Source: a virus
Reading direction: 5' to 3' (one strand)
Virus record (IMG/VR): IMGVR_UViG_3300036399_000439
Coordinates: 1 to 28,035 of that record
DNA length: 28,035 nucleotides
The notes below the pieces were generated by a model that saw nothing but the letters and a program-made list of their open reading frames with translations, did not search any database and was not told where the DNA came from. The number at the start of each line of letters is the position of its first letter. Positions within the stretch are counted from its first letter, which is position 1. Shown piece by piece: positions 2,980-11,849 of this stretch. Made by a program: the position numbers and the translations under genes.

Positions 2980-3324
2980 ATGTACAAGAACATCCTGATT
3001 GCTTCTGCGGTAGTTTTTGCGGGTCTTGTTGGCGTTGCCCTTGCTGGCTCTGCCCCTGACGTAGCTGACGTTGCTTCAAGCTCCTGCCACGGCAGTGCTG
3101 AGGCTCAGGCTGAGTCGAGTGGTTGCCATGGATCGTCTGCCAGCAAGTCTGCCAGCCGGTCTGTGTCGCGTCGTTCGACCCGGCGGCTGGAAGCCCGTGC
3201 TGCCCGCTCTGAGGCCCGTGCGGCTGCACTGGATTGCCGTGCGGAAGCCATTGAGGCCCGTGCGGAAGCCAAGGCTGAGGTAAGGTCGGCCAAGGCTGCA
3301 AAGTCATCCTGTCACGGTGGGTGA
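2980..3324 (+). CDS. Small secreted Ala/Arg-rich protein with CHG repeats
   Basis: Starting at the ATG at 2980 gives 114 residues, preceded by AAGGGAA. An upstream in-frame start at 2929 would run through the hairpin and hide the signal peptide, so I reject it. Residues 1-23 (MYKNILIASAVVFAGLVGVALAG) form a clear signal peptide or N-terminal membrane segment. The mature part has three Ser/Gly-Cys-His-Gly motifs (two near the start and one at the very end) and a middle that is strongly Ala/Arg/Glu-rich, probably one long helix. Cys-His pairs could bind metal or form disulfides. From memory, secreted proteins with repeated CHG motifs are common in Planctomycetes, which is one reason to suspect such a host. 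It lies alone between a hairpin and a terminator. Function unknown. Confidence 0.7.
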   Translation: MYKNILIASAVVFAGLVGVALAGSAPDVADVASSSCHGSAEAQAESSGCHGSSASKSASRSVSRRSTRRLEARAARSEARAAALDCRAEAIEARAEAKAEVRSAKAAKSSCHGG

Positions 3325-3347
3325 CACTGGAGGTCCGAGTCATTGCG

Positions 3348-3385
3348 ACAAGAGCCGTGGGTCACCCCTGCGGCTCTTGTTTTTT
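3348..3385 (+). terminator. Rho-independent terminator
   Basis: ACAAGAGCCG at 3348-3357 pairs perfectly with CGGCTCTTGT at 3371-3380 around a 13-base loop, followed directly by six T (3380-3385). This is a textbook intrinsic terminator. It closes the capsid region and lies 14 bases before the next gene, whose GGAGG ribosome-binding site follows the T run. No promoter is visible between the terminator and that gene, so the next operon probably depends on read-through or antitermination. Confidence 0.85.
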
Positions 3386-3399
3386 GGAGGCGCACTTAA

Positions 3400-3735
3400 A
3401 TGCTTGAGTTGATTATCAAGAACATGGACAAGGTTTTGATTGTTACTGGTGCGGTCGTTGTTTTGTTTTGGCCCAAGATTAAGGCAGCAATCGCCGCCGC
3501 AGGAACGGCACCAGCACCCAGCCCTTCCTGTTCATCGTGCCCTTGCTGTGCCCCTCCCAAGCCAGAGGAGCCCGTTTCCAACTGGGTCAACCGACAGCTT
3601 GAGGTCAGGGAATACTGCGAGCGGCGAGGTCTTGTCGATGCCGTCAAGGCTTGTGATGTGGTCATTACCGAGATGATTTCTGGCGAGCCTTCTCATGGCC
3701 ACGCCGACAAGGTGGCATCCAAGAAGGGATGTTGA
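3400..3735 (+). CDS. Small membrane-anchored Cys/Pro-rich protein
   Basis: A 111-residue protein with a strong GGAGG ribosome-binding site about 9 bases upstream. Residues about 11-27 (KVLIVTGAVVVLFWPKI) form one hydrophobic segment, followed by an Ala/Pro linker with a cysteine cluster (SCSSCPCC) and then a helical C-terminal domain starting at a Trp-Val-Asn motif. It ends in Cys. The layout is a single-pass anchor with a Cys-rich stem and a small domain. It is followed after one base by another single-pass protein, so the two may form a membrane complex. I do not recognise the family. A spanin-like or holin-accessory role is possible given the neighbours, but nothing in the sequence proves it. 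Confidence 0.7.
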   Translation: MLELIIKNMDKVLIVTGAVVVLFWPKIKAAIAAAGTAPAPSPSCSSCPCCAPPKPEEPVSNWVNRQLEVREYCERRGLVDAVKACDVVITEMISGEPSHGHADKVASKKGC

Positions 3736-3736
3736 A

Positions 3737-4207
3737 ATGGGCAGTGGCGATCTTTTCCGAGTGGCAATAGTTGTCGGTGGCCTGCTTCTGTACTTCCAGA
3801 GCCAGAAACCCCCAGACAACCCCAAGCCGGACGAGCCAAAGCCAGTCCCGGTTGAGCCGGTGCCGCCATACACAGGCCCGTATCAGTCGCTGCACCAGTC
3901 CTCTCGTCCAATGACCGTAGAGGACAGGGATGCTTTGTCTGGTGGGTTTAAGGCCGGGTACGACATGGCAATGGCTGACAGCAAGGGTCTGATTAAGCCA
4001 ACGAACGTAGCTCAGGACTTCGTGGTTGGCCTGCTCCAGTTTGACTACAACGGCATCTACAAGCCCTCTGCAAAGTATCCATCGGTGGTGACGGAGGTTT
4101 CCAAGATCATGGAGGAGGTCTTGGGGACTGATGTCAAAGACATGAGCCCGACCGAGCGAGATAAGTTCATTCAGTCTCTCCTTGAAATGAGTAAGGCGGT
4201 GAAGTGA
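3737..4207 (+). CDS. Single-pass membrane protein with Pro-rich linker
   Basis: The ATG at 3737 follows the previous stop by one base and is preceded by AAGGGA, giving 156 residues; an upstream ATG at 3695 would overlap the preceding gene and is less likely. A hydrophobic segment at about residues 7-20 (FRVAIVVGGLLLYF) is followed by a proline-rich linker (about 24-45) with alternating Pro, Lys and Glu, and a soluble helical domain of about 100 residues. This is the layout of a protein that is fixed in the inner membrane and reaches into the periplasm. Its stop overlaps the start of the papain-like peptidase gene, suggesting coupled translation and a shared role. No family recognised. Confidence 0.7.
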   Translation: MGSGDLFRVAIVVGGLLLYFQSQKPPDNPKPDEPKPVPVEPVPPYTGPYQSLHQSSRPMTVEDRDALSGGFKAGYDMAMADSKGLIKPTNVAQDFVVGLLQFDYNGIYKPSAKYPSVVTEVSKIMEEVLGTDVKDMSPTERDKFIQSLLEMSKAVK

Positions 4208-5265
4208 TGGCCAGACTCAAGACCCTCCAAGAGCGGATTGCTAACAACGAGCTTCCTCCCCCGGCTGTGTTCAAGTCGGCAGAGGAGTGTGCGTCTGCCT
4301 ACTCCAGCGGCTTTGAGGGTGCCATCTATGACCCCGATGGTGCCGAAGCGGTGGAGTCCCAGCAGTTCGGCAAGGGCGAGGACATGCTCAGGGACTTTGG
4401 CCTAGAGGACGGTGGCAAGGGCAAGCTCTCGCTTATCTACCCTGTCGTGTGGGATGTGGCCGGTCGAGATGACTTCTTCCACGGCTCCAAGTCACAGCCC
4501 TGTGGAGACTGTGTTTCCCGCTCGCAGACTCATGCCGCCATGGGCTCTCTTGCTGTGGCTGCCAAGAACGGCCAAGGAACGTGGCCTGATGTACCTGATG
4601 AGGTCTACAAGTACGGCATGGTGTTCCATCCGAGCCCGGTCTATTGGAATAGAGATCACGGTGGGGACGGGTGGAGCTGCTCAGAGGCAGTGGCACGATC
4701 CAAGGACAGCATTGGCCTTGTTGTCTGTGCCAAGTACCCGGGCCCACTGGACTTTGACCTGACCGTCTACAACGAAAACGTGGCTCACAAGTGGGGCAGC
4801 AAGCGTCCCCCGGATGACATCCGCAAGCAGTTGAACGAGCATTGCACCTTGAGCTACAGCCGGATCAGCAAGTTTGAGCAGATCAGGGATGCCATAGCCA
4901 GCGGGTATGCCGTGACCACCTGTGGCAGCCAAGGCTTTGATTCTGTCCGTGATGCCAATGGTGTTGCTCGCAGGAAGGGGTCATGGAGTCACGCGATGGC
5001 TTATGTGGCCTGCGATGACACCGAGTGGGCCCACAAGAACTACGGCGAGCCTCTCATTTGCGTCCTCAATTCTTGGGGAGAATCTTGGATCAGCGGGAGT
5101 AGGGTTGTTCAAGGTAACTCTGCTATCCCCCAAATCCCCAAGGGTTCATTCTGGGCCAAGTGGTCTGATGTGTCTGGCCGTGATTGCTATGCGGTCAGTG
5201 CTGTCAACGGGTTCCCTGCGATGAAGCTCCCAAGCTGGGGAGAGGCTCTTGGGGGGTTGATCTAG
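4207..5265 (+). CDS. Papain-like cysteine peptidase
   Basis: Starting at the ATG at 4207, whose A is the last base of the previous stop, gives 352 residues; a GTG one codon earlier is a less likely start. The motif QPCGDCVSRS holds the probable catalytic Cys near residue 102 with a Gln five residues before it, as in the papain QGSCGSCW signature. SWSHAM gives the probable catalytic His near residue 262 and LNSWGESW the Asn near residue 288, so order and spacing of a C1-type Cys-His-Asn site are complete. The classical Trp after the catalytic Cys is replaced by Val. There is no signal peptide, which would demand a holin or other export route. It lies among genes for membrane and secreted proteins, so a role in envelope breakdown or processing of a virion protein is possible. 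From memory, GDCVS-type relatives occur in Planctomycetes and marine phage sequences. Confidence 0.85.
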   Translation: MARLKTLQERIANNELPPPAVFKSAEECASAYSSGFEGAIYDPDGAEAVESQQFGKGEDMLRDFGLEDGGKGKLSLIYPVVWDVAGRDDFFHGSKSQPCGDCVSRSQTHAAMGSLAVAAKNGQGTWPDVPDEVYKYGMVFHPSPVYWNRDHGGDGWSCSEAVARSKDSIGLVVCAKYPGPLDFDLTVYNENVAHKWGSKRPPDDIRKQLNEHCTLSYSRISKFEQIRDAIASGYAVTTCGSQGFDSVRDANGVARRKGSWSHAMAYVACDDTEWAHKNYGEPLICVLNSWGESWISGSRVVQGNSAIPQIPKGSFWAKWSDVSGRDCYAVSAVNGFPAMKLPSWGEALGGLI

Positions 5266-5266
5266 G

Positions 5267-5920
5267 ATGCGGCACCTCCTGCTTGCCCTGCTGTTGCTGG
5301 CTCTTCCCCGGGCTGCCTTCGGGCTTCCGGTTGGGGAGCTTCGTCGGCTTGCGGCTTACGAGGCATACCTTGTTGCCACGGCTGTGCCACCCACGCCGTG
5401 CAAGCCGGATGGGCCATCCCGCCCGGGGGTCTGTCCTGAGTGCGATGGTTCTGGCAAGGTCGGAGATGGAACTGTTTTCATGGAATGTGGTCGCTGTGGT
5501 GGGACTGGCAAGGTCAGTTCTAGTGCCCCCAGCTTCGGTGCCACCCCTCAGGTGATTGCCCCGCCGGTCATAGTGCCGTCTATGCCAACGCCGGTCCCCG
5601 GGCCTCAGGCCATTCGTAGCCCAATGCCGGTTCCTCAGGTTATTCGCAGTCCCGGCCCTCAGTGGAATGTCGAGGGGAAAAACAACTACTCAACATTTGA
5701 GTTGGCTGACCACCTTCGCCGGGTGCATGGAGTGAGCGTGGACGGCCAGACGCGGGAGCAGCTAGAAGCGATGCACGACAACCTGCACAACTCCGAGGTC
5801 AGGTCTGCTCCGGTCATCCGGCCACCTGCGCCGACAATTCGTTCATGCCCCAACGGGCAGTGCCCAACCTCTGGGCAGTCCTACCAAAGTTCACCAAGAC
5901 GGGGGATTTTCCGCAGATGA
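5267..5920 (+). CDS. Secreted protein with DnaJ-type zinc finger
   Basis: A 217-residue protein starting one base after the peptidase stop. Residues 1-19 (MRHLLLALLLLALPRAAFG) form a typical signal peptide. At about residues 55-82 two CxxCxGxGK/CxxCxGTGK motifs (CPECDGSGKV and CGRCGGTGKV) form a DnaJ cysteine-rich type zinc-binding unit, but there is no J domain. Then comes a Pro-rich region with the repeated element PQxIxxP, and a C-terminal part with the pattern HLRRVHGVSVDG...LEAMHDNLHN, which looks like a small helical domain that I cannot name. The last part has a CPNGQC pair. A zinc finger of this kind outside the cytoplasm is unusual and may serve protein binding. Its stop overlaps the next gene start as ATGA. 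Confidence 0.75.
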   Translation: MRHLLLALLLLALPRAAFGLPVGELRRLAAYEAYLVATAVPPTPCKPDGPSRPGVCPECDGSGKVGDGTVFMECGRCGGTGKVSSSAPSFGATPQVIAPPVIVPSMPTPVPGPQAIRSPMPVPQVIRSPGPQWNVEGKNNYSTFELADHLRRVHGVSVDGQTREQLEAMHDNLHNSEVRSAPVIRPPAPTIRSCPNGQCPTSGQSYQSSPRRGIFRR

Positions 5921-6279
5921 CAGAAGTCGCCCCGCCCCCCGCCTCTTCCGACACGCTGGCCCGCTACATCGAAAAGTTTGGCCTACCCACGGCTATACTC
6001 TGCGTAGTCTGCTACATGGGCTACTCCGAGGTAATCAAGCCCATCACGCTGAAGTATGTCGAGCTTGTGGAGGAAGTTAAGAACTCCAACAAGACCCTCT
6101 CGGAAGTTACAAACGAGTTGCGGATCAACATCAAGGCTATTGCAGAGGCCAATGGCGGTAAGCTGGACCGCATGGAAGACCGGCTCAAAGAGATTGATAG
6201 CTGCGTCAAAAGGCTTGAGAGGCTGCTGCCGCAGGGCGAGCGGGCCAGTATCAGGCCCATTGATCCCGGGGGTGGCTGA
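5917..6279 (+). CDS. Holin-like protein: one membrane segment plus coiled coil
   Basis: Translation from the ATG at 5917, which overlaps the preceding stop as ATGA, gives 120 residues; an upstream in-frame ATG at 5845 lies inside the preceding gene. A hydrophobic segment at about residues 22-37 (GLPTAILCVVCYMGYS) is followed by a long heptad-like, charged helix (about 45-105). One N-terminal membrane helix followed by a charged coiled coil is the pattern of BhlA/UviB-type small holins, and the place next to other membrane proteins and a peptidase would suit a lysis role. Many small phage membrane proteins share this pattern, so the holin call is an inference. The stop overlaps the next tiny gene as TGATG. 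Confidence 0.65.
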   Translation: MTEVAPPPASSDTLARYIEKFGLPTAILCVVCYMGYSEVIKPITLKYVELVEEVKNSNKTLSEVTNELRINIKAIAEANGGKLDRMEDRLKEIDSCVKRLERLLPQGERASIRPIDPGGG

Positions 6280-6374
6280 TGGTCGGCAGAATCTACCGCA
6301 CAAAGCATCTTGTACTTGTCGTTGCCTTCGCCCTCGGAATCGCAATGGCAGTCATCGTTGAATCATGGATTTAG
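6279..6374 (+). CDS. 31-residue membrane peptide
   Basis: An ATG at 6279 shares its A with the preceding stop (TGATG). It opens a 31-codon frame that ends at 6374 and fills the gap up to the next ribosome-binding site. The peptide has a short basic N-terminus (RIYRTKH) and then LVLVVAFALGIAMAVIVESWI, one continuous hydrophobic helix. The stop/start overlap, exact fit between neighbours and clear topology argue for a real gene. It could be a holin partner, an antiholin or a small envelope protein. No homologue can be named from so short a sequence. Confidence 0.6.
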   Translation: MVGRIYRTKHLVLVVAFALGIAMAVIVESWI

Positions 6375-6726: not shown

Positions 6727-7397
6727 GCGAAGCACCAAAGCCGCCGGATCAGACAAGGCAGTGCGACAACTGCAAGCAGGTGAAGCCGCTTACCACGAAG
6801 CACTTCCCTCGGGTTGTCGGGACTCAGCACAACTATCAGTGGGTGTGCCGCCCCTGCAAGGTCAAGCTCAAGCAGCAGGCACAGATGGAGCGGATGGAAA
6901 GGAACGCCATCGGCACCTACCTCTCTCGGACTGTCTCTGGCGGGACTAACATCCCCCACACGGCAGAGCTTCTGGAAGGAATCATGCACTACTTTGGTGG
7001 TGCCAATGGATTTGCCAGCTTGGTGATGAAGCAATACTTTGAGTCCCCACCCGGCAGCCGGATGCGTAATTCCCTGCTGGAGATGGTTGTCCGGCTGGCT
7101 TCCAAGAACACCGAGCAGGGTGGGGCAAAGAAGCCCATCGACCTCTACTCAGAAGAAGAGCTAGAGGCAGAGATCGACCAGCGGCTCAGGCAGGCTGTCC
7201 TGACCTACGGAAATGTGAGGCACATAGATGTCCAAGAAGAAAACAAGCCAGATTCCACCAACGCCGCTGCCAACGGTCCAGAGCATTTCGAGCTTCCAGC
7301 GGGACGAGTTGAAGAGCTTGCAGAGCGAGCTATCGGAGAGGCGAATAGAAGCCTTGAGGCTATACAAGCCAACCGCGAGGCAGAGGGAGTTTCATGA
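6723..7397 (+). CDS. Zinc-finger protein, probable small terminase subunit
   Basis: A 224-residue protein. Residues 14-47 carry CDNCK and CRPCK pairs, about 25 residues apart, forming a probable zinc ribbon or HNH-like zinc knuckle. The middle (about 60-125) is helical with the pattern ELLEGIMHYFGGANGFASLVMK, and the C-terminal 100 residues are charged helix. A DNA-binding zinc motif, helical core and position directly ahead of the large terminase support a small terminase, which recognises phage DNA and regulates packaging; this is inference because no classical helix-turn-helix is obvious. Its last 57 codons overlap the terminase reading frame in another frame. Both frames look genuine, since the terminase needs that part for its ATPase Q motif. 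Confidence 0.6.
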   Translation: MSEAPKPPDQTRQCDNCKQVKPLTTKHFPRVVGTQHNYQWVCRPCKVKLKQQAQMERMERNAIGTYLSRTVSGGTNIPHTAELLEGIMHYFGGANGFASLVMKQYFESPPGSRMRNSLLEMVVRLASKNTEQGGAKKPIDLYSEEELEAEIDQRLRQAVLTYGNVRHIDVQEENKPDSTNAAANGPEHFELPAGRVEELAERAIGEANRSLEAIQANREAEGVS

Positions 7398-8916
7398 GTG
7401 CAAGTCCAGCGAAACACTTGTGCTTGGTGGAAATAGATCGGGCAAGTCACTCTGCTCATTCATAGAGGACGCATGGGCCGCAACTGGAACCCATCCCGTA
7501 GAAGGAAAGTACAGAAAAGAGGGCGGGAACCTCGTCATCGTAGGCCAGAACTGGAAGCACATCGGTCTAGTGGTAGTGCCCTATTTGTTCAAGGCCGGGG
7601 CCTTCAAGATCATCAGGGACAAGGAGACGAACCAGTTCCGAGCCTTCGATCCGGTGGCCGACGCCGACAGGCTGAAGGAAGCCAAGCCTGCACCGCCGCT
7701 GATCCCGCCCCGGATGGTCAAGAGCTTTTCGTGGGTGCTGAAGTCCGCAGGCTACTTGAACTCCTGCGAGCTAGTTAATGGCTGGACTATCTATTGCTTC
7801 TCCTCGGAAGGTGATCCACCCCAAGGATTTCAAGCGGACAGAGTGCATATAGATGAAGACCTTAACAACGAGGCATGGGTTCCAGAAATGCAAGCCCGCC
7901 TTGCCGACAGAAAAGGGCTCTTCTGCTGGTCTGCAATGCCCCATAGCAAGAATGAGGCACTCCTTGGCCTGAACGAAAGAGCAGACAAGGCAGAGGAGGT
8001 CGGAGACACAAAGGACATAAAGAGGTTCGTCCTAAGGTTTCTGGACAATCCTCACATCGACAGCGACGAAAAGCGTAAGGCCATTGAGCGATGGTCGGCC
8101 ATTGGGGATGACGTTCTCAGGCAGAGGTCTGAGGGCGAGTTCGTCATTGACTCCATTCTGGTCTACCCCAACTTTAACCCGTCCATCCATGGGTTTGATC
8201 TATCCACGATTGAGGGTGGGGAGATACCGGATGACTGGTGTCGATATGCCGTCGTGGACCCGGGGCATGCCGTAACCGCAGTCCTGTTCGCAGCCGTCCC
8301 CCCCGGGGCAGACCGGATCGTGTGCTACGACGAGCTTTACATAAGGAACTGCAACGCCACCATATTTGCCTCTGAGTTTCATAAGAAGGTGCAGGGCAAG
8401 AAGTTTTACGCCTTCCTAATTGACGCCCATGGTGCCCGCCTGACCGATATTGGCTCAGGCAAATCCCCTCAAGAACAGTATTCGGAGCAGCTTTCTGCCC
8501 TCGGGGTGAGGTCAAAAGTCACCGGGGCTAGCTTCATTCCCGGCTCAGATGACATTCAGGGTGGACTTCAGGCAGTCCGAATGTCCATGCACATCAGGCC
8601 AGAGGGCACCCCAAGGTTCCGGTATGTCAGAAGCCGCATGCCCAATTTTGAGCGGGAACTGAAGCGGTACAAGAAAAAGACTATCAACGTGGCTGGGACT
8701 TCGGTTGTGACCGATGAGCCCAACAAGCGCGGCGAGTTTCACCTAGTGGACTGCCTGAGATACCTGATGGCCTACGATCCCCAATACCACAGGCCTGAGG
8801 TTGTGGCAGAAGTTCCTTGGTACGTCTCTTGGAAAGCCAGAAGGGATAAGGAGCAGGGCAAGTCCAATACTATTTACTTAGCCCCAAACTCCTACACTGA
8901 AGTCTACATCGCATAG
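7228..8916 (+). CDS. terL: Terminase large subunit (packaging ATPase/nuclease)
   Basis: A 562-residue protein, the usual size. It pumps DNA into the prohead and cuts concatemers. YKPTARQREFH (residues 46-56) is the adenine-contacting Q motif, GGNRSGKS (67-74) the Walker A motif, and VHIDED with Asp209-Glu210 the Walker B and catalytic glutamate. The nuclease half shows the acidic residues Asp344 in VVDPGH, Asp399 in LIDAHG and Asp508 in HLVDCLRYL, as in RNase H-fold terminase nucleases. The start at 7228 lies 170 bases inside the upstream gene; it is the only in-frame ATG before the Q motif. Codon use differs strongly from the capsid gene: 24 of 40 Arg codons are AGA or AGG by my count. Identification is secure; the exact start less so, because in-frame TTG codons exist downstream. 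Confidence 0.93.
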   Translation: MSKKKTSQIPPTPLPTVQSISSFQRDELKSLQSELSERRIEALRLYKPTARQREFHECKSSETLVLGGNRSGKSLCSFIEDAWAATGTHPVEGKYRKEGGNLVIVGQNWKHIGLVVVPYLFKAGAFKIIRDKETNQFRAFDPVADADRLKEAKPAPPLIPPRMVKSFSWVLKSAGYLNSCELVNGWTIYCFSSEGDPPQGFQADRVHIDEDLNNEAWVPEMQARLADRKGLFCWSAMPHSKNEALLGLNERADKAEEVGDTKDIKRFVLRFLDNPHIDSDEKRKAIERWSAIGDDVLRQRSEGEFVIDSILVYPNFNPSIHGFDLSTIEGGEIPDDWCRYAVVDPGHAVTAVLFAAVPPGADRIVCYDELYIRNCNATIFASEFHKKVQGKKFYAFLIDAHGARLTDIGSGKSPQEQYSEQLSALGVRSKVTGASFIPGSDDIQGGLQAVRMSMHIRPEGTPRFRYVRSRMPNFERELKRYKKKTINVAGTSVVTDEPNKRGEFHLVDCLRYLMAYDPQYHRPEVVAEVPWYVSWKARRDKEQGKSNTIYLAPNSYTEVYIA

Positions 8917-9722: not shown

Positions 9723-11849
9723 ATGAACGAAAACCTCCAGCCAGAGCTTCCTTCGGAGGGGTCAGATTCTGGCCCTTTTGAGGCCCCGCCGCCTGATGTC
9801 ATTCCGCAGAAGCGGATGGAGGACGCCCTTCGTGCCATCTCGACCTCTTGGCTGTCCAAGCTCAAGCAGGCAGAGAAGCACAAAAAGCCCTTCACGGATG
9901 ACGCCAAAGAAGGCATGAACTTCTTTGATGGTTCAGGAGACTGGTTCTGGAAGCAGGACGGCAGGTCGGCTGGCAACTACTCCAAGATTGCCCCGCCGTC
10001 TTTCAAGATGAGCCTGAACAAGGTGTTTGAAGCGGTCAAGCTCTTTGGCTCAGTCATCTACCACCGCAATCCGGTGCGGACTGTCACCCCAAGGACCTTC
10101 CCGCCAATCCCACCAGAGTCTTTGGGCATTGATCCAAGCCAGCCGCCGCAGATGGACCCCATGACCGGGCAGCCCATGCCGGACCCTAGGGTGGATCAGT
10201 ACGTCCAGATTTCTCAGCAGATCGGAACCATGGAGCGGCAGCGGGAGACCGTTGCTTCTCTTATGGAGACGTACCTGAACTACAGCCCTGTCGAGTTGAA
10301 CCTCAAGGAACACTCCAAAAAAGCTGTAGATGAAGGCATTATCAAAGGCATGGGGGTGTGGTGGACGGAATTGGTTGAGCTGCCTGCCTCAGAAGACGGC
10401 CAAACCTTTGGGATTATCGGCTCTTTCTGTGATTCGGTAGACAACCTCTTGATGGACCCTGATGCGGACGAGCAGGAAGACATCCTGTGGTGTGCCCGCC
10501 GCTGCGTTCACCCGGTCGATGAGGTGGCAAAGCAGTACGGCCTGAACAAAGAAGACTTGAAGGGGCACCTTGAGAGCTTTGTGGCCCGCTCCCAAGAAGA
10601 AGACCGGGACTACAAAACAAAGAAGCGGAACGGCAAGACCAACGACCTGTGCGTCTACTGGAAGATTTGGTCCAAGACGGGCTTTGGCCACACGCTCAAG
10701 GGATTCCCCAAAGAGTTTGCAGGGATGTTCGATGCCCTTGGTCAGAATTGCTATGTCGTGGTGGCCGAGGGTGTTGATTTCCCCTTGAATTGCCCAAAGG
10801 AAATCGCACTTGAGGAGCCCGACGAGTCTGGGCTGCCCAACAGCCTTTTCACCAAGAGCCGCTGGCCGATCCCCTACTACGCCGACCTCAACGGCTGGCC
10901 ATTCACCCCGCTCCAGTTCCACCGCAAACCGGGGTACATCTGGCCCATCTCTCACCTGAAGCCGGGTCTCAGTGAACTGAAGTTCCTGAACTGGGCCATG
11001 AGCTTCTTGGCAGGCCGGATCATGGTGTCCTGCAAGACCATGGTGGGTGTTGCGAAGGCTGCTGGAGATGACATCAAAGACCAGATTCTCAAGCACGAAG
11101 AGAACGGATTCTCCCTGATTGAGCTATCTGAAACTCTTGGCCGTTCGGTTGGGGACATCGTGAATGTCTTCCAGATGCCGCAGGTCACCCCGGATATATG
11201 GCAGATCATACAGGCCGTATCCGAGATGTTTGACAAGCGGGTAGGCCTAACCGAATTGGTCTATGGCATGACCCGCAGCCAGTTCAGGAGTGCGGCAGAG
11301 GCACAGGTCAAGTCAGAGCAGATTAGCGTTAGGCCAGATGACATGGCTAATGTCCTTGAAGACGCCATGTCTATGTTGGCAAGGAAGGAAGCCCTAGCTG
11401 CCCGCTGGCTTCTTCAGCCTCAAGACGTTGCTCCCATCCTTGGTCCGCTGGGTGCCGAGGTCTGGAACAGCCTGATTCAGCAAATGGACGTTCATGGTCT
11501 CGCCCGTGAGTTCGACTACAGGATCGAAGCTGGTTCTGCCCGCAAGCCCAACAAGGCAGGCAGGGTAGAGCAGATGCAGATGGCCATGCAGACGCTTGGC
11601 CCGATCCTGCAAGGCCTTGTCCCAATGGGTCAGGTTGATCCGCTCAACGCTCTCATCACCGACTGGGCCAGATCGCTCGACATCGACCCCAAGAACTACT
11701 TGGTTCAGCCGCCACCTCCCCCGCCGCCGCCACCCGGCCCTCCGTCTGGACCTCCAGCCAGCGAAGAAGGGAATCAACCCGGGCCACAAAGCGGCGGGGG
11801 GGCGGCTCCTGAAGAGATGCCCCAGATGCCACCGGAGATGATGGGATGA
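9723..11849 (+). CDS. Portal protein
   Basis: A 708-residue protein, large as in podovirus-type portals. The portal forms the ring at one head vertex through which DNA enters and to which the tail attaches. The N-terminal Pro/Glu-rich tail is followed by the wing and stem region; the features SFKMSLNKVFEAVKLFGSVIYHRNP and LKPGLSELKFLNWAMSFLAGRI resemble the conserved helices of large phage portals, and YGMTRSQFRSAAEAQVKSEQ the typical region before the crown. Near the C-terminus is a run of nine prolines (around residue 665) and a Gly/Pro-rich disordered end. It starts directly after the preceding stop and overlaps the next gene as ATGA. The length, helical pattern and place in the cluster make the call good; an ejection protein is the main alternative. 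Confidence 0.85.
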   Translation: MNENLQPELPSEGSDSGPFEAPPPDVIPQKRMEDALRAISTSWLSKLKQAEKHKKPFTDDAKEGMNFFDGSGDWFWKQDGRSAGNYSKIAPPSFKMSLNKVFEAVKLFGSVIYHRNPVRTVTPRTFPPIPPESLGIDPSQPPQMDPMTGQPMPDPRVDQYVQISQQIGTMERQRETVASLMETYLNYSPVELNLKEHSKKAVDEGIIKGMGVWWTELVELPASEDGQTFGIIGSFCDSVDNLLMDPDADEQEDILWCARRCVHPVDEVAKQYGLNKEDLKGHLESFVARSQEEDRDYKTKKRNGKTNDLCVYWKIWSKTGFGHTLKGFPKEFAGMFDALGQNCYVVVAEGVDFPLNCPKEIALEEPDESGLPNSLFTKSRWPIPYYADLNGWPFTPLQFHRKPGYIWPISHLKPGLSELKFLNWAMSFLAGRIMVSCKTMVGVAKAAGDDIKDQILKHEENGFSLIELSETLGRSVGDIVNVFQMPQVTPDIWQIIQAVSEMFDKRVGLTELVYGMTRSQFRSAAEAQVKSEQISVRPDDMANVLEDAMSMLARKEALAARWLLQPQDVAPILGPLGAEVWNSLIQQMDVHGLAREFDYRIEAGSARKPNKAGRVEQMQMAMQTLGPILQGLVPMGQVDPLNALITDWARSLDIDPKNYLVQPPPPPPPPPGPPSGPPASEEGNQPGPQSGGGAAPEEMPQMPPEMMG

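Follow-up and report, generated by a model that had tools for sequence, protein, structure and literature searches.

A papain-like peptidase in a putative lysis module of tailed Planctomycetota phages

The IMG/VR virus record IMGVR_UViG_3300036399_000439 is a tailed-phage fragment, complete as a record at 28,035 bases (this whole stretch is called the window below). Between its head and terminase genes, 3' of a strong terminator, positions 3400-6374 hold six tightly packed or overlapping genes, one of which encodes a papain-like cysteine peptidase and the others predicted membrane or exported proteins. We give an even chance to the reading that this row is a module with which tailed phages of Planctomycetota breach the host envelope, most likely for lysis, the peptidase occupying the position of the endolysin. 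Lysis is what we infer from the gene row and from sequence comparison; that it would be truly proteolytic is a narrower claim, which we hold to be possible rather than probable. The initial annotation, made from the letters of the window, had described an overlapping row of six genes after a terminator and suggested a proteolytic lysis system. The positions of the open reading frames (ORFs) agree with the description; the interpretation is partly supported and is much extended here. The features of the row are as follows.

3347..3381, + strand: intrinsic terminator preceding the cassette, formed by a long hairpin with T6 after it (minimum free energy -25.5 kcal/mol)
3400..3735, + strand: s, a small protein of 111 amino acids (aa) with one transmembrane (TM) segment, encoded upstream of papain or CAP enzymes as their constant membrane partner
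3737..4207, + strand: c1, 156 aa, with an N-terminal TM helix, a Pro-rich linker and a helical bundle (AlphaFold model)
4207..5265, + strand: predicted papain-like (C1A fold) cysteine peptidase, 352 aa, with Q97, C102, H262 and N288
5267..5920, + strand: c2, predicted exported Cys-rich protein with a hydrophobic N-terminus and a DnaJ-like CxxCxGxG zinc ribbon (sequence and Pfam)
5917..6279, + strand: c3, 120 aa, a coiled-coil protein with one TM segment, holin- or spanin-like by shape only
6279..6374, + strand: hydrophobic peptide of 31 residues, overlapping the c3 stop

The peptidase and its conserved neighbours

The peptidase gene starts at an ATG (4207) that overlaps the stop codon of c1. 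Its AlphaFold model (pLDDT 82.7, pTM 0.87) has xylellain as top Foldseek match (E 2e-9), and structural comparison (VIA) gives Z 19.1 for xylellain, 18.1 for procathepsin B1 and 16.4 for Cwp84; the superposition on xylellain has a root-mean-square deviation of 3.0 over 229 residues, and identity is 10-18% among the structural matches listed. The residues Q97, C102, H262 and N288 are invariant in an alignment (A2) of 18 loci, among them the window, out of 21 known at that stage (L002, L017 and L025 were omitted as duplicates), and over 87 loci they occur in every scored row (Q 85/85, C 86/86, H 87/87, N 87/87). The intact Cys-His-Asn motifs reported in the initial annotation are thus borne out by alignment and model alike, and the structure prediction that it called for returned a papain/cathepsin fold. 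Because this fold is predicted and none of the 18 members matches a Pfam peptidase family at E up to 1 (NlpC/P60 and CHAP being likewise absent), the peptidase is, as modelled, a C1A-fold family without a Pfam match.

The 87 loci are the window, 84 viral relatives from three scans and two contigs of metagenome-assembled genomes (MAGs). Searched with a single sequence, the peptidase had three relatives, then 20 and 140 with profiles, the best 80 of the 140 being kept from one scan; among 23 peptidases classed as diverged, L142-L144 duplicate members of the main set. On its own the peptidase had no useful match in Pfam, PHROG or PDB sequences, and profiles gave weak papain matches in PDB (E 0.24 and 1.1) and one weak PHROG match of unknown function. 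Neither the peptidase nor its diverged form nor the matrixin of jumbo phages described below has a relative in the GenBank phage collection. With C1A peptidases such as xylellain, the cathepsins, papain and Cwp84 of Clostridioides difficile (titled an S-layer-associated protease), the window enzyme shares the predicted fold and the Q-C-H-N set; it differs from them in the low identity given above, in the want of a Pfam family match and in being encoded in a phage membrane cassette. The papain fold is also found in uncultured tailed phages among BFVD proteins annotated as Peptidase_C1, with about 11-16% identity in the strongest phage matches. Against a relative 58% identical (L003), the nonsynonymous divergence (dN) is 0.42 and the synonymous divergence (dS) is saturated. 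Many diverged relatives, including most of those in planctomycete contigs and among the relatives of the large terminase subunit (TerL), carry an N-terminal TM segment on the peptidase itself. The peptidase ORF of L085 (8645-10834) is about 730 codons long, with a long N-terminal extension.

The neighbours of the peptidase are conserved with it. A c1 gene adjoins it upstream in 85 of the 87 loci, the exceptions being a locus at a contig end (L004) and one on a contig of 3.1 kb (L098); c2 adjoins it downstream in 81/87 and c3 lies downstream in 27/87. The co-occurrence in related phages that the initial annotation proposed to check is present and exceeds chance, the papain-like enzyme keeping its membrane and exported neighbours in nearly all of the set. 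After dereplication, 51 loci fall into 11 unrelated genome groups when genomes are linked by at least two shared non-cassette genes (14 groups at three shared genes, 7 at one). In the largest group (27 representatives, contigs up to 205 kb) the row also includes c20 with two TM segments, the TM protein c7, a matrixin and c9, a member of the s family. The jumbo matrixin, which bears a PG_binding_1 domain (Pfam E 7.5e-18 and 1.5e-11), occurs in 49/87 loci; the holin-like c20 of these ~200-kb phages matches Phage_holin_10 at E 0.41 only. One 205-kb phage (G004) encodes, alongside papain and matrixin, a trypsin-like protein with a hydrophobic N-terminus (L103 19103-19966, minus strand; Pfam E 8.9e-16). 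HNH endonucleases, read from the sequence, lie in or just after papain or CAP cassettes at L003 11053-11631, L148 1353-2060 and L162 7451-7924, and Pfam finds one HNH protein in the set formed by the window and G002, a 62.5-kb genome of the same family by TerL.

As to the partner proteins, the s family comprises 83 ORFs collected by iterative search with a hidden Markov model (HMM) from papain loci, TerL relatives and a planctomycete MAG contig. The c1 model (pLDDT 91.4) has a helix at 3-21 and a bundle at 50-155, and the fold search gave no clear match to known folds (best Z 6.1, a helical bundle); the hydrophobicity of the window c1 is 1.58, under the threshold of 1.6, though the model has a helix there. 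The c1 alignment (A7) holds 42 of 49 representatives. The window c2 matches Pfam DnaJ_CXXCXGXG at E 0.003, under the family cut-off; among the c2 representatives, 43/46 have at least two CxxC motifs and 36/46 a hydrophobic N-terminus. In several exported proteins a CPNGQCP-like motif precedes a C-terminal tail rich in Arg and Phe, RRGIFRR for instance (as at window 5850-5917), which may be a sorting signal; by pattern search the tail occurs in 7/46 and the motif in 20/46 c2 representatives. Thioredoxin-like tails once considered for the c2 of L027 and L085 were dropped, the PDB searches having given no such match. The label "holin-like" that c3 had initially received is descriptive only, for one TM segment and a coiled coil, the top match being phrog_1009, of unknown function (E 4e-4), and no Pfam holin matched s, c1 or c3. 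The 31-residue peptide has a counterpart of 26 aa in L146 and none in L033 or L034.

Exchange of the enzyme behind a constant membrane protein

The finding that carries most of the argument comes from phages related to the window by TerL, of which the best 80 of 109 were kept. Here a slot, bounded by the gene that follows the head protein gene and by the one that precedes the terminase gene, varies in content: it may hold the papain cassette, a diverged papain that itself carries an N-terminal TM segment (L164, L168, L169, L174, L182-L184, and a truncated one in L180), or, behind a small TM protein and in place of papain, a CAP-domain protein anchored by a TM segment (Pfam E 1.6e-16), sometimes together with a protein bearing HExxHG. 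This last, zincin-like protein is known by its motif only (5/80 loci), with no Pfam or PDB match. At the locus level, CAP is present in 21 of the 80, papain in 9 and both in none. We also searched for papain in 16 of the 80 records and in G002 as a seventeenth, 10 of these 17 (all of at least 48 kb) by an ORF-level HMM: among the window and these ten, papain with c1 is present in six, CAP in five, and there is none with both or with neither. In all 11 of these long family members, s lies directly upstream of the enzyme, and the small TM proteins of papain and CAP loci, the window's 3400-3735 included, all belong to the one HMM family of 83 ORFs. G419, the closest CAP relative among the long set, shares 87% terminase identity with the window. 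A diverged papain in G424 was found by the ORF-level HMM and missed by the A2 profile search of genomes, and for this reason the negatives of the latter are not firm for diverged forms. That an anchored enzyme is replaced by another at the same locus supports in part the lysis reading first suggested for this DNA.

This arrangement recalls the canonical cassette of holin, endolysin and spanins, in which a small TM protein, an enzyme, an exported protein and a TM coiled-coil protein likewise stand in a tight row, and in which the membrane partner may likewise stay constant while an unrelated enzyme takes over the enzyme position. It differs in that no muralytic enzyme is recognised and that none of the membrane proteins could be assigned to a known holin or spanin family. 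CAP/SCP proteins are known from phages (a YkwD-like protein of Bacillus phage Stills, for instance), where their role is stated as unknown (PMC4541274; here and below, papers cited by PMC number are cited for the parts of them that were available). Here CAP takes the slot of papain, from which it differs in fold and site.

The surroundings of the row are those of a tailed phage. The window also encodes collagen-like tail proteins, and the genes used as landmarks are as follows.

1073-2206: major head protein (phrog_9953, 2e-10)
7228-8916: terminase large subunit, TerL (Pfam Terminase_6N 0.0018, plus TerL relatives)
9723-11849: portal (phrog_156, 1e-9)

In the GenBank phage collection the window TerL has three distant cultured relatives (best 26% identity over 91%), and longer relatives of the window phage measure 48-64 kb. 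In some of them (G426-G428, G424, G002) the cassette sits elsewhere in the genome. The terminator ahead of the row is confirmed by folding (z -4.66; 0/200 shuffles as stable), and a simple pattern scan for terminators showed no excess over chance (4 found, 4.0 expected). Small proteins that look secreted, with CHG motifs and a tail rich in Ala and Arg, are encoded near cassettes of either kind (window 2980-3324; in CAP-type relatives, for example, L153 7705-8100). In L175 (1869-4421) and L176 (1386-3938) the terminase ORF has 850 aa, with an insert after Walker A which begins with Cys, contains an HRVLS-like block and looks like an intein.

Hosts and the search for an endolysin

Planctomycetota had been suggested as hosts, and the genome surveys agree. 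Among the genomes of 84,980 species, a first scan gave no match and a second gave two contigs, both from Planctomycetes MAGs, with patterns that reach close relatives only. Of 392 Planctomycetota genomes, the sole phylum sampled by that search, 12 match, one at E 5.6e-117 and 11 with diverged forms (6e-28 to 7e-8); some of the weaker matches may be host genes. In 7 of the 14 planctomycete stretches retrieved c1 is next to the peptidase, and terminase genes lie beside diverged cassettes in L130 (E 1e-10) and G348:C2 (E 1.9e-54). The latter (L136), a separate planctomycete contig of 37 kb, encodes a papain-like peptidase with a TM anchor as well as a terminase that is followed by another large ORF; it is possibly an extrachromosomal prophage.

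A Pfam scan of the main proteins of the window finds no muralytic domain, as had been noticed by eye for muramidases, amidases and transglycosylases. Beyond the window, where a conventional endolysin was to be sought, none is recognised in the long related records: Phage_lysozyme, Amidase_2, SLT and NLPC_P60 (PF00877) are each found in 0/24 records, with positive controls in bacteria, and muralytic families are absent from the full Pfam lists of the window and G002 and from those of G018 and G019 (55.8 kb each). These lists cover 18 ORFs of the window, 57/61 of G002 and 95/118 of G018 and G019, and a further one 186/219 of G004; the ORFs outside them are mostly short, opposite to the gene direction or scanned elsewhere. 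The case for the absence of an endolysin, as far as sequence goes, is strong but not final, since CheckV completeness is given for no record.

Mechanism, alternatives and meaning

A constant membrane protein with interchangeable anchored enzymes, present in all long members, in the late-gene region and with no recognised endolysin, is what would be expected of a lysis module. We would picture its action as follows. In the inner membrane s, possibly with c3 or the 31-residue peptide, would control or make an opening; c1 would tether the peptidase on the outside of this membrane, a task that in the diverged versions would fall to the peptidase's own TM anchor; the peptidase would then cut either proteins of the envelope, such as lipoprotein or cell-wall links and S-layer-like proteins, or peptide cross-links, assisted by the exported c2. 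Export, target, lysis and what each of the four proteins s, c1, c2 and c3 does are all inferred.

Several points weigh against this reading. Morons and exclusion genes are likewise swapped between related phages. Families s, c1, c2 and c3 are all without known function, the window-type peptidase has no signal peptide, and CAP and papain occur together in the ~200-kb phages G014 and G015, so that there is no exclusion there. The endolysin negative lacks one-by-one searches for CHAP, Amidase_3, M15 and glycoside hydrolase (GH) families; where it derives from the full Pfam library it excludes CAP-type genomes, and for G004 it holds among the matches listed (the best 25 of 30 and 25 of 34 families). 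M23 matches exist in 9/24 records, all under the family cut-off. We do not count them as wall peptidases and read them as RNA polymerase from the ORF lengths and from one sequence: they come in two sizes, 1458-1490 aa, like an annotated RNA polymerase cluster, and 631-643 aa, and the sequence of an ORF of 626-631 aa, similar in length to the shorter class, reads as RNA polymerase beta-prime. Further, several Planctomycetes have lysozyme-sensitive peptidoglycan sacculi (Jeske et al. 2015, PMC4432640), and it is not obvious that protease activity alone would set the phage free; this contradicts the premise of a protein wall without peptidoglycan and weakens the argument from a protein-rich wall with which the idea of a proteolytic endolysin had started. 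Three possibilities follow: the papain-like enzyme may cut peptides of the wall, proteins may form an additional barrier, or a wall enzyme may have escaped recognition. Proteolytic enzymes against S-layers have been proposed for archaeal hosts without such a wall (PMC4456609). Finally, release without lysis is on record for a planctomycete phage (PMC10945688).

The peptidoglycan of the hosts is also an argument for taking the peptidase as an ordinary endolysin, whose papain-like site would cut cross-links or stem peptides as the related folds CHAP and NlpC/P60 do. The exchange of papain and CAP in one slot obeys the same logic, and the partner enzyme of jumbo phages carries PG_binding_1; yet the fold matches are proteases of the papain/cathepsin type, the 24 records gave no NLPC_P60 match and the 18 members no match to any peptidase family, and the window enzyme has no binding domain, so we think this unlikely, if deserving of attention. 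We are a little more sceptical of superinfection exclusion or receptor shaving, in which a tethered enzyme would strip surface or periplasmic proteins and so block other phages. Membrane-bound and exported partners would suit it, and so would the swapping of enzyme types between close relatives, as is often seen with exclusion genes; such genes would nevertheless be patchier, and papain or CAP in all 11 long family members goes beyond what is expected of an optional gene, quite apart from the position of the row, which in the window has head and packaging genes around it, and the want of a recognised endolysin in long relatives.

That same place, between the major head gene and the terminase and portal genes, together with tail-fibre-like genes read from the sequence near the row in other phages, could suggest a virion-associated protease acting in particle maturation or in envelope penetration at entry. 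We find this improbable: s, c1 and c3 are TM proteins, c2 is predicted to be exported, many relatives have a TM segment on the peptidase, and the row is located elsewhere in five relatives. Nearness to head genes was not accepted as proof of a maturation role, since the position of the cassette changes among members of one phage family, and a maturation enzyme, the finding that would have spoken against the initial proposal, looks unlikely given membrane and exported partners. Most improbable to us is non-lytic egress, with the module loosening the envelope locally and particles leaving without killing the host. A chronic extrachromosomal phage of a deep-sea planctomycete has been reported (PMC10945688), and the separate 37-kb contig bears a diverged peptidase and a terminase gene, but that phage is not shown, in the part available, to carry the module, and head, portal and terminase genes of the tailed-phage type are in keeping with ordinary lytic release.

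If the row is a lysis module, one may go further and ask whether planctomycete phages as a group open the cell by proteolysis, not by a classical endolysin, with a constant small membrane protein and interchangeable anchored enzymes: papain-like, CAP or HExxH zincin-like, and in the ~200-kb phages papain with a PG-binding matrixin and a secreted trypsin-like protein. The reason would be that proteins are a load-bearing or outermost barrier of the planctomycete envelope, and we put this forward tentatively, doubting it more than we believe it. Among the papers listed by literature searches, none has a title on lysis genes of planctomycete phages; the available main text of a survey of viral lytic proteins (PMC12596118) does not contain "planctomycet", "papain" or "matrixin", and a classification of papain-like enzymes (PMC10318531) does not contain "planctomycet" either, the only phage enzymes named in 12 of its 38 passages being of the CHAP type.

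How phages leave Planctomycetes, and what holds the envelope of these bacteria together, has hardly been studied. The module provides a marker for planctomycete phages and protein families that have no Pfam match. Should planctomycete cells be opened by the peptidase or by the CAP enzyme, the substrate of that enzyme would name the barrier, and such enzymes would be of use for the gentle lysis of Planctomycetes and for genetic work on them; if proteolytic opening were true of the group, it would be a distinct type of lysis by bacterial viruses.

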